In this document: piece after piece, positions 1,862 to 24,234 of the stretch
Position numbering within the stretch: position 1 is the first letter of the stretch
Layout: the number at the start of each line of letters is the position of its first letter
IMG/VR virus record: IMGVR_UViG_3300042382_000223
Span: 1-28,863 of that record
DNA from: a virus
Strand: one strand, 5' to 3'
Length of the DNA: 28,863 bases
Notes under the pieces: model-generated
Databases searched by the model: none
Told to the model about the DNA's origin: nothing
What the model saw: only the letters and a program-made list of their open reading frames with translations
Translations under genes and position numbers: made by a program

Positions 1862-1873
1862 TATAATAGACAG

Positions 1874-1977
1874 TATTCCGTCATGATACATGCAGTTGCT
1901 TATAGCAACCTTATTGCTGAGTACGGAGGACCAGGGTAATTACCTGGGGGACCTGAGCAAGTCTACTAAACTGCTCC
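1874..1977 (+). ncRNA. Candidate structured RNA / 3'UTR downstream of hsp20
   Basis: Several nested stems are visible. TTCCGT (about 1876) pairs with ACGGAG (about 1923) as an outer stem. GTTGC/GCAAC forms an inner hairpin. CCAGG/CCTGG forms a second. The final element CCTGAGCA...AAACTGCTC (1952-1977) is the recurrent hairpin found five more times on the other strand. A TATAAT (1862-1867) lies just upstream. No known riboswitch class is recognised. Confidence 0.35.
1952..1977 (+). terminator. Recurrent operon-end hairpin, copy on + strand
   Basis: GAGCA (1955-1959) pairs with TGCTC (1972-1976) in the conserved frame CCTGAGCA-N8-AAACTGCTC. This is the only copy on the + strand and lies 90 nt downstream of hsp20. 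It lacks a U-tract. It may be a terminator or an RNA-processing signal. Confidence 0.5.
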
Positions 1978-2001
1978 ATTATTATGTTACAATATAGTTG
2001 T

Positions 2002-2081
2002 CCCCATACAGGACCTTAGAGATGGCTTAGTTACCCATTGATATATACCGTGGCCTTCGTGCCTGAATTGCCTGTATGGGG
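2002..2081 (+). ncRNA. Candidate structured RNA closed by an 11-bp stem, directly upstream of the HNH gene
   Basis: CCCCATACAGG (2002-2012) is perfectly complementary to CCTGTATGGGG (2071-2081). Inside are shorter potential hairpins (ATGG/CCAT; GGC around a CTTC loop). A TACAAT -10-like box (1988-1993) would start a transcript near 2000. The element is close to tRNA size but is not a tRNA: the closing stem is too long and there is no T-loop. Confidence 0.4.
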
Positions 2082-2108
2082 CTTCTAATGCCCTTAAAAG
2101 GCTATATA

Positions 2109-2396
2109 ATGGGTATATCTATGACAGACAAAGAGTTGTCCGCTTACAATAAGAAACAGTTTAAGCAGAGACTTACAGAGATAAAAGAGGCTGCTGGTTG
2201 TGCTGATTGTGGGAATAAGAACCCTATAGTCTTAGATTTTGATCACCTAGGAAATAAAAAATACAATGTTTCAAGGATGGTCCACGACGGGATGTCCTGG
2301 AAGGCCATTAAAAAAGAGATAGAAAAGTGCGAGGTAGTTTGTGCCAACTGCCACAGGATAAGGACTCATAATAGGTTTTTAGGTCTTACAAAGTGA
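2109..2396 (+). CDS. Small free-standing HNH endonuclease
   Basis: A 95-residue protein with the zinc-supported HNH (beta-beta-alpha metal) fold. C31-x-x-C34 and C78-x-x-C81 are the zinc knuckles. DFDH (43-46) is the first catalytic strand, followed by CHRIRTHNR with the final histidine. The ATG at 2109 is preferred because AAAAGG precedes it at good spacing; an upstream in-frame ATG at 2076 lies inside an RNA stem and has no ribosome binding site. Such genes are common homing endonucleases in phages. The structured sequence directly upstream is noteworthy. Confidence 0.85.
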   Translation: MGISMTDKELSAYNKKQFKQRLTEIKEAAGCADCGNKNPIVLDFDHLGNKKYNVSRMVHDGMSWKAIKKEIEKCEVVCANCHRIRTHNRFLGLTK

Positions 2397-2408: not shown

Positions 2409-3386
2409 ATGTTAAAAGAAGGCGACTTTGTTATGGGATCAACCTCTGAGGGGGTTATTCATGGCGTTATAGAGCACATTATGACTGAGGGTGGAATACT
2501 TGGTACTCCTGGATCAGAATATGCTTTGGTTTCAATGCCACCAGAAAACCCAGCAATGTCAGTTAGAATACACAAAGAAGAAAACGGTACATGGAAGCCA
2601 ACAGCATACAGTATTGGCATGATGTACAAGGATGCTGAAAAAGCAGATATGGATAATCACTCAATGGATTCAGAGGTTGCTATGGCAATGTACGATTCGC
2701 AGATGGGCAAGTCGTATAAAGAAGAAGAAAAGATTAAAAAAGAATACGAAGGCTGTGGCTGTCCAATGTGTAAAGAACTAAATGTTACATGCGAAGAATG
2801 TCCTCAGTGTCAGGCTGGAGAAATGAAATCAGATTGCTGTGGTAATGTAAGTAAGCAAGCACCTTGTTGGGATGGATATGTTCAAAGAGGAATGAAGCCA
2901 GGAGACAATGGTAAGCCAGTTCCTAATTGTGTACCTGCTGCAAAAGCAGATGATCTATTTGAAGATGATGATACAGTTGAATACGAAACAGATTCAGTTT
3001 CAAAAGCGGACGGATACTCACCACCAGCAGGAGCAAGATCTGCTGCTCGTAGAGCAATTAAGTTTAAGGAAGATGGAAAAGCAAATGGTGCTGGAACTGC
3101 AGTTGGTTGGACTCGTGCAGGGCAGTTAGCAAGAGGAGAAACTATCTCTCTCAGTACTGTTAAGAGAATGTTCTCGTACTTCTCACGCCATGAAGTAGAC
3201 AAGAAGGGTAAGGACTGGGGCAACTCAGCAAACCCATCTAACGGATATATTATGTGGCTTGCATGGGGTGGAGATGCAGGATTCTCTTGGTCAAGAGGAA
3301 TTGTTAATCGTGAAAAAGATAAAGCATTGTTTGCCGAATTTGGTAAAGATCATACCAAGGTACAAAGAGAAACACACACGATATAA
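2409..3386 (+). CDS. Phage protein with SH3/Tudor-like N-terminus, Cys-rich middle and conserved C-terminal domain
   Basis: 325 residues in three visible parts. Residues about 1-70 (EGDFVMGSTSEGVIHGVIEHI... then ...WKPTAYSIGMMYKD) resemble small beta-barrel domains fused to phage head or protease proteins. Residues about 115-175 are Cys-rich (CGCPMC, CEECPQC, CC) and end in CWDGYVQRGMK...VPNCVP, a motif common in phage structural proteins. Residues about 200-310 (ARSAARRAIKFKEDGKANG ... MFSYFSRHEVDKKGKDWG ... WLAWGGDAG) form a conserved phage domain of unknown function. A virion or head-maturation link is likely but unproven. No strong ribosome binding site is visible. The stop overlaps the next start (TAATG). 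Confidence 0.8.
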   Translation: MLKEGDFVMGSTSEGVIHGVIEHIMTEGGILGTPGSEYALVSMPPENPAMSVRIHKEENGTWKPTAYSIGMMYKDAEKADMDNHSMDSEVAMAMYDSQMGKSYKEEEKIKKEYEGCGCPMCKELNVTCEECPQCQAGEMKSDCCGNVSKQAPCWDGYVQRGMKPGDNGKPVPNCVPAAKADDLFEDDDTVEYETDSVSKADGYSPPAGARSAARRAIKFKEDGKANGAGTAVGWTRAGQLARGETISLSTVKRMFSYFSRHEVDKKGKDWGNSANPSNGYIMWLAWGGDAGFSWSRGIVNREKDKALFAEFGKDHTKVQRETHTI

Positions 3387-21857: not shown

Positions 21858-21883
21858 GTGAGCAGTTTTTATTCTTACTCAGG
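21858..21883 (-). terminator. Recurrent hairpin CCTGAGYA...AAACTGCTCA
   Basis: Stem TGAGTA/TGCTCA with a G-U pair, at the 3' end of the DUF932 gene and upstream of tRNA-Asp. No U-tract. Confidence 0.6.
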
Positions 21884-21894
21884 AATTTTTTTAA

Positions 21895-23072: not shown

Positions 23073-23093
23073 TAAATTTTGCGGGAATTAAAA

Positions 23094-23120
23094 GTTGAGC
23101 AGTTTTAAAACATGCTCAGG
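23094..23120 (-). terminator. Recurrent hairpin CCTGAGCA...AAACTGCTCA
   Basis: Stem TGAGCA (23113-23118 side) with TGCTCA (23096-23101 side), loop ending AAAC; followed by ACTTTTAATT, the most terminator-like of the copies. Confidence 0.65.
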
Positions 23121-23138
23121 TTTATTAGTAGCCCCCTA

Positions 23139-23639: not shown

Positions 23640-23665
23640 GGGAGTAGTTTATACACATACTCAGG
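23640..23665 (-). terminator. Recurrent hairpin, covariant copy (GAGTA/TACTC)
   Basis: The third pair is changed on both arms relative to other copies (C-G to T-A) while the loop keeps AAAC. Located 3' of the 23724 gene. Lacks a U-tract. Confidence 0.6.
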
Positions 23666-23723
23666 TGTCTTATCTCAGGCATACCTACACATCAAGGCGT
23701 AGGGCTTAGCAGAGATAAATTAT

Positions 23724-24187: not shown

Positions 24188-24220
24188 GTTGAGCAGTTTA
24201 TTTATTATCTCATGCTCAGG
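24188..24220 (-). terminator. Recurrent hairpin, long-loop copy
   Basis: TGAGCA/TGCTCA stem with a 17-nt loop ending AAAC. Located between genes 24399-24235 and 24149-23724. Confidence 0.6.
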
Positions 24221-24234
24221 AGATAATTGTCAAA

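Follow-up and report, generated by a model that had tools for sequence, protein, structure and literature searches.

The 28,863-nucleotide (nt) viral record IMGVR_UViG_3300042382_000223 of IMG/VR (positions 1–28,863, the whole stretch analyzed and hereafter called the window) carries a conserved RNA motif, RNA-B (2000–2082, + strand), immediately ahead of a gene for a small HNH nuclease (2121–2396, + strand). RNA-B probably works with the HNH enzyme, because the pair is inherited together in related phages. We tentatively read the two as a homing-type cassette of two genes, where RNA-B would serve HNH as a dedicated partner or regulator, a reading to which we give somewhat less than an even chance.

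IMG/VR contigs are fragments, and the loci compared here (designated by L numbers) are related and several of them overlap. The phage host is most likely a member of the Actinobacteria, because one gene of the window has relatives in Mycobacterium and Streptomyces phages for 369 of 374 records and the nearest cultured relatives of the window HNH are found in Streptomyces phages. Eighty viral loci were collected via HNH, and when the gap upstream of HNH was compared with them by blastn, a block of ~100 nt was found to be kept in nearly all 80, mostly directly upstream of HNH.

Structure and conservation of RNA-B

An Hsp20 gene and HNH are separated by two conserved, mutually unrelated putative RNA genes. 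The first-pass annotation of this DNA had reported two structured RNA segments ahead of HNH, and both were borne out by comparison with relatives: the first, RNA-A, is 100% paired in 21 sequences, and the closing stem P1 of the second, RNA-B, is 99.8% paired in 42. RNA-B is predicted to be a three-way-junction RNA with helices P1 (2002–2012/2071–2081), P2 (2021–2025/2035–2039) and P3 (2052–2054/2061–2063) surrounding strongly conserved GGACCUUAG and UAGUUACC, and its variable interior amounts to only a few nt. In the window P1 is a perfect 11-bp stem, exactly as first described.

Among the 42 distinct sequences, the 99.8% of P1 cells that are paired include compensatory changes at 11 of 11 pairs, and P2 is 96% paired with three pairs compensated. 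A control with slid partners gave pairing in only 31–50% of cells. P1 and P2 thus covary, whereas P3 is weak (just 68% paired) and is not strongly claimed. One-sided changes in P1 give G-U rather than A-C on the + strand, which fits an RNA made from that strand. Tested against 200 dinucleotide shuffles, positions 1995–2090 alone fold better than 197 of them (z −2.7). RNAalifold run on A1 recovered P1 together with two helices of 2 bp, but not P2 as drawn; P2 rests on the counted changes.

A covariance model (R1) built for RNA-B located the motif upstream of HNH in relatives. Rfam searches at the gathering thresholds and at E ≤ 5 gave no match for RNA-A or RNA-B, the hits being solely tRNAs or chance matches. 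No RNA-B was found among cultured phages, nor was its motif found in 84,980 bacterial and archaeal genomes. A covariance-model search of the four phage genomes with the nearest HNH relatives, a set without a positive control, likewise gave no RNA-B.

RNA-B and HNH are inherited together

A DNA pattern of RNA-B only, blind to HNH, matched at least 120 stretches. Among the matches listed, HNH lay on the same strand ~90–110 nt past the motif start in 102 of the 105 testable RNA-B copies and within 0.9 kb in the remaining three. An intact HNH frame was present in all 140 distinct RNA-B copies with enough downstream sequence (140/140). Each of 19 longer records (19/19) held one RNA-B and one HNH of the RNA-B-linked subfamily; the second, weak RNA-B rows in these records are the same site read on the opposite strand.

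Co-occurrence was counted from two anchor genes outside the pair, the upstream gene and a CHAP gene. With the upstream-gene anchor, 41 loci had both partners, two had RNA-B only, one had HNH only and 34 had neither; both RNA-only loci are cut at a contig end, and the HNH-only protein is 49% identical and encoded on the other strand. The CHAP anchor gave 26 loci with both, none with RNA-B only, two with HNH only (one 47% identical and located elsewhere, the other cut at the contig start) and 46 with neither. Over both anchors, 67 loci had both partners with no untruncated exception among close HNHs, and 80 had neither. Spearman correlations between RNA-B and HNH distances were 0.29, 0.64, 0.72 and 0.17 in four subsets, with no permutation as high, versus 0.08, 0.04, 0.22 and 0.09 in the same subsets for a flanking gene (Hsp20, XkdF-like or CHAP) and RNA-B.

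The pair was also found in altered arrangements. A glutathione-peroxidase-like cassette gene separates RNA-B from HNH at two pairs of loci, L022/L435 and L030/L122, which carry two different RNA-B subtypes; both partners are kept. In L085 (− strand)/L404, RNA-B is kept, whereas a non-orthologous HNH, longer and with a zinc-finger-like part at its N terminus, has taken the place of the usual one.

Several observations weigh against a functional pairing. Many of the 34 and 46 loci with neither partner are truncated before the site, so that only some are proven empty. The CHAP-subset difference in correlation is small, and the adjacent Hsp20 tracks HNH about as well as RNA-B does (0.30 vs 0.29), so the distance test backs the pair only partly. 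Close spacing explains part of the co-inheritance, because the genes are usually ~25–35 nt apart. Moreover, RNA-B was not detected at 74 more distant HNH loci, which shows that the HNH fold in general does not need it. Finally, as the loci are related and partly overlapping, the counts do not represent independent events.

RNA-B could instead be an independent phage RNA, for example one with an anti-defense or translation-related role, that profits from a neighboring homing endonuclease with no RNA–protein interaction. The nearest cultured relatives of HNH all sit within tRNA clusters, where homing endonucleases are commonly located. In L035 and L047, RNA-B adjoins tRNA genes, and the RNA is retained where cargo parts it from HNH. 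There is also a precedent in the T-even tRNA genes, which benefit from the neighboring homing endonuclease SegB (PMC13096335). Hitch-hiking of this kind, however, predicts leftovers after nuclease decay, and none of the ~140 testable distinct RNA-B copies is without HNH; some HNH remains even after the change of type in L085. Because RNA-B never occurs without HNH despite the HNH swap and the intervening cargo, a functional tie is likelier, and we consider hitch-hiking unlikely, albeit a serious contender.

A homing-type cassette that carries an RNA gene is the simplest account, and the tRNA-cluster location of the nearest cultured HNH relatives fits it as well. In the cassette that we favor, HNH would most likely act as a free-standing DNA nuclease of the homing type, promoting spread of the cassette to related phages and its persistence there, and RNA-B would most likely bind HNH, or restrain or direct it. 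A physical interaction between the two is the least certain part of this proposal. It is possible, if doubtful, that the two make up a new two-component RNA–HNH system, either a ribonucleoprotein or a pair of RNA antitoxin and nuclease, in which the RNA would license or restrain a minimal phage-borne HNH DNA nuclease having no RuvC part, Nop domain or guide.

RNA-B and HNH have separate promoter-like boxes

A −10-like box had been noted ahead of each RNA segment, and these are real motifs. A TANRAT box occurs within 25 nt upstream in 130 of 136 distinct RNA-B copies, as compared with 8% of random 25-nt windows, and mostly lies 5–7 nt before the stem. In the window this box is TACAAT (1988–1993, + strand), which ends 6 nt before RNA-B. 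Given this placement, transcription would start at P1, and RNA-B would be a discrete RNA gene transcribed from its own −10 box into an RNA of ~85 nt that begins at the closing stem.

HNH follows directly, as first annotated, the ATG being at 2121 and RNA-B ending at 2082. The HNH gene has its own TATAAT box (2105–2110, + strand), 10 nt before the ATG, and no Shine-Dalgarno (SD) sequence ahead of it. A perfect TATAAT stands 6–10 nt before the HNH ATG in ~110 of 124 distinct relatives, and 121 of the 124 have no SD-like motif ahead of the start. Because the TATAAT is so near the ATG and an SD-like motif is absent, the HNH protein is probably made from a separate, leaderless mRNA. Promoter activity of the −10 boxes is putative.

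The spacing also bears on whether RNA-B might act in cis as a 5′ structure governing HNH expression. The hairpins of I-TevI, segB and mobE keep the ribosome-binding site (RBS) sequestered until a late promoter located within them becomes active, and a structure with an internal promoter ahead of a homing gene is thus a known design (PMC2988022). Although the end of RNA-B and the HNH start are usually ~25–35 nt apart, L217, L219 and L221 are exceptions in which the sole usable start codon of HNH falls within the 3′ arm of P1, and the window HNH frame is already open from an ATG at 2076 in the same arm. In contrast, most HNH starts lie 23–34 nt past RNA-B with their own TATAAT and no SD to hide, RNA-B is fully conserved when a promoter-bearing gene intervenes before HNH, and its conserved loops go beyond the needs of sequestration. 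A cis-acting leader seems rather improbable to us.

The HNH protein

The HNH gene (phrog_3106, 5e-24) encodes 91 aa; its open reading frame (ORF) measures 91–106 aa and comprises an HNH part only. The residues F40-D41-H42, C74-N76-C77-H78 and R81-T82 are invariant in 34 proteins, giving the motif DFDH...CxNCH...RT, and the HNH motif is intact at 140 of 140 RNA-B loci. The predicted structure (pLDDT, predicted local distance difference test, 89) has an HNH-type fold whose top match among solved structures is the Gme HNH nickase 4h9d at a modest Z of 4.7. ORF, domain and fold analysis found no RuvC part, in keeping with the first-pass annotation. The median ratio of nonsynonymous to synonymous substitution (dN/dS) is 0.07 over 1158 pairs, and HNH is under purifying selection. 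DNA cleavage and homing are putative activities.

Searching PDB sequences with the HNH profile gave no match and PADLOC found nothing, whereas the sole NCBIfam match was a sub-threshold hit to cytochrome c nitrite reductase. Pfam assigned Cytochrom_C552 to HNH positions 2121–2393 (E 7e-7; 29.1 vs a cut-off of 24.1 bits), which is likely a false match due to the CxxCH motif.

The combination of an HNH gene and a structured RNA linked to it is reminiscent of IscB, TIGR-Tas and reRNA-TnpB, and the guide-RNA interpretation raised in the first-pass annotation would make RNA-B a guide scaffold for HNH. In the last of these systems, stable co-occurrence of RNA and nuclease led to RNA-guided enzymes (PMC11061315), and HNH weakly resembles TasH in fold (Z 3.9). 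The interpretation found no support. With transcription predicted to begin at P1, no 5′ guide remains, the variable interior of RNA-B spans only a few nt and has no room for one, each genome has a single RNA-B, and the protein consists of nothing but an HNH of 91 aa with no RuvC part seen. The Nop domain (PF01798) was absent from all 11 related phage records (0/11), which may be fragments, and positive controls matched. An RNA-guided nuclease is thus very improbable.

Empty sites and the insertion

The Hsp20 gene upstream (1442–1861, + strand; Pfam HSP20 1.4e-17; phrog_432) is present at occupied and empty sites alike. Its stop ends at 1861, and the intergenic gap extends from 1862 to 2120 (+ strand), up to the HNH ATG. 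The downstream flank gene (2409–3386, + strand) matches phrog_2859 (8e-31), which is annotated as of unknown function; XkdF-like is the label used here. Empty sites were found between Hsp20 and this flank in L304, L317 and L324 and between Hsp20 and CHAP in L379 and L411, with the downstream gene beginning ~90–330 nt after Hsp20. In L304, Hsp20 and RNA-A lead into ...TTATGCTATAATGGTTAGATG and then the downstream ORF, and the equivalent place in the window reads ...TTATGTTACAATATAG, RNA-B, HNH, ...GTGATATAATAGTTAGATG. The RNA-B/HNH pair thus lies between two −10 boxes, such that the promoter of the neighboring gene would stay intact.

HNH ORFs are common in phage introns as a matter of general knowledge, and an intron or intron remnant carrying HNH had been suggested along with splicing of the neighboring genes; no result here supports it. 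Rfam gave no intron match, the flanking genes are complete, the empty sites are intergenic with no split gene, and every part has its own promoter box. These findings leave the intron with next to no probability.

The locus is a hypervariable cassette site. Host-like cargo genes (transporter-like, glutathione-peroxidase-like and others) were seen around RNA-A, RNA-B and HNH at L010:3968–4903, L030:4209–4991 and L049:3650–4320.

RNA-A and the recurring pseudoknot

RNA-A (1875–1976, + strand) combines a 5′ domain that is almost invariant with an H-type pseudoknot at its 3′ end. Its TATAAT box (1862–1867, + strand) lies directly 3′ of the Hsp20 stop codon, an arrangement repeated in relatives. 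All 25 pairs, including the pseudoknot, are 100% paired in the 21 distinct sequences, and one pair in the stem and one in the pseudoknot are compensated, so that the stem conservation expected across related phages was found for both RNAs. A second RNA-A type with a different 5′ domain (28 other sequences) contributes six more compensated pairs, the 5′ domain being almost invariant within its own type. Both segments had been described as structured; RNA-B outperforms shuffled sequences, as given above, but segment 1874–1970 does not (z −0.3). RNA-A is accepted on conservation, because folding energy alone gives no support.

The pseudoknot (1950–1976, + strand) pairs GAC 1950–1952 with GTC 1961–1963 and GAGCA 1955–1959 with TGCTC 1972–1976, and has the form S1-CCUGAGCA-S1′-nnAAAC-UGCUC. 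A recurrent hairpin had been described here. The recurrence stands, with five copies in the window, one on the + strand at 1950–1976 and four on the − strand (~24190–24225, 23640–23670, 23085–23125 and 21860–21885), but the hairpin is probably part of a pseudoknot rather than a plain hairpin. Pseudoknots with at least four S1 pairs numbered 129 across all loci versus 2 in a reversed-sequence control. The motif S1-CCUGAGYA-S1′-nnAAAC-UGCUC sits just after stop codons and between genes, and may be an unusual terminator or 3′-end protecting element of this phage group.

RNA-A is independent of HNH. It is found at the HNH-less sites L304, L317 and L324, and in L047 it lies elsewhere on the opposite strand. 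The significance first attached to an RNA beside HNH thus carries over to RNA-B but not to RNA-A. A third RNA, RNA-C (GUCGGGGGGACAGCGACAC... plus the same 3′ pseudoknot), forms a tandem with RNA-A and has a separate −10 box (L058:3584–3648, L049:3405–3484). The RNAs look modular, since the 5′ module of RNA-C is fused to RNA-B in L013, L022 and L071. Other short pseudoknot RNAs occupy the Hsp20–CHAP gap at sites without RNA-B and HNH (L379:7880–8001, L408:7912–8001, L411:7913–8001 and L422:7881–8001); their S1 and S2 differ yet stay paired.

Comparison with known systems

Free-standing phage HNH homing endonucleases (T4 mob, Aeh1 mobE; PHROG 3106/2255) resemble the present gene in being small, in their variable presence at intergenic sites and in their location near tRNA or structural-RNA genes. 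The intact HNH (beta-beta-alpha metal) motif and both occupied and empty sites were found here. In contrast, the parts consulted of the T4 review (PMC2988022) describe no conserved RNA gene constantly paired with such a nuclease, and the T4-type structures described there are RBS-hiding hairpins, whereas RNA-B appears to be separately promoted. As to RBS hiding, most HNH starts lie well beyond RNA-B without an SD, and the L217 lineage has its start codon within P1. The T-even SegB–tRNA pairs also place a nuclease gene beside RNA genes, but combine a GIY-YIG enzyme with tRNA rather than HNH with a new RNA family.

Like IscB with its HEARO/omega RNA, the locus has an HNH nuclease beside a structured RNA. 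Unlike IscB, it has no RuvC split around HNH, no guide and no Rfam match to the omega RNA fold, and RNA-B is ~85 nt compared with hundreds of nt for the IscB omega RNA. TIGR-Tas (TasH) similarly joins a phage HNH and an RNA, with the weak fold similarity given above; no repeat array was seen here, although no search aimed at arrays was made, and RNA-B is single-copy in all 19 longer records. On the features tested the locus is not IscB, TIGR-Tas or an intron. Type III toxin-antitoxin systems have a ToxN fold and a tandem-repeat RNA, as in ToxIN. They are similar in layout only, with a structured RNA immediately upstream of a small nuclease and the two always paired; here the nuclease is HNH rather than ToxN, there is one RNA unit instead of tandem repeats, and each gene has a promoter box.

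The literature searched contained no HNH-linked phage RNA besides HEARO/IscB and TIGR-Tas, and the RNA-B family and its strict tie to HNH are new as far as that literature and Rfam show. If the RNA controls or completes HNH, the two would make an RNA–nuclease pair of ~0.4 kb. Even if RNA-B does not act on HNH, it constitutes a widespread phage RNA family that is new and whose gene partner is clear and testable.
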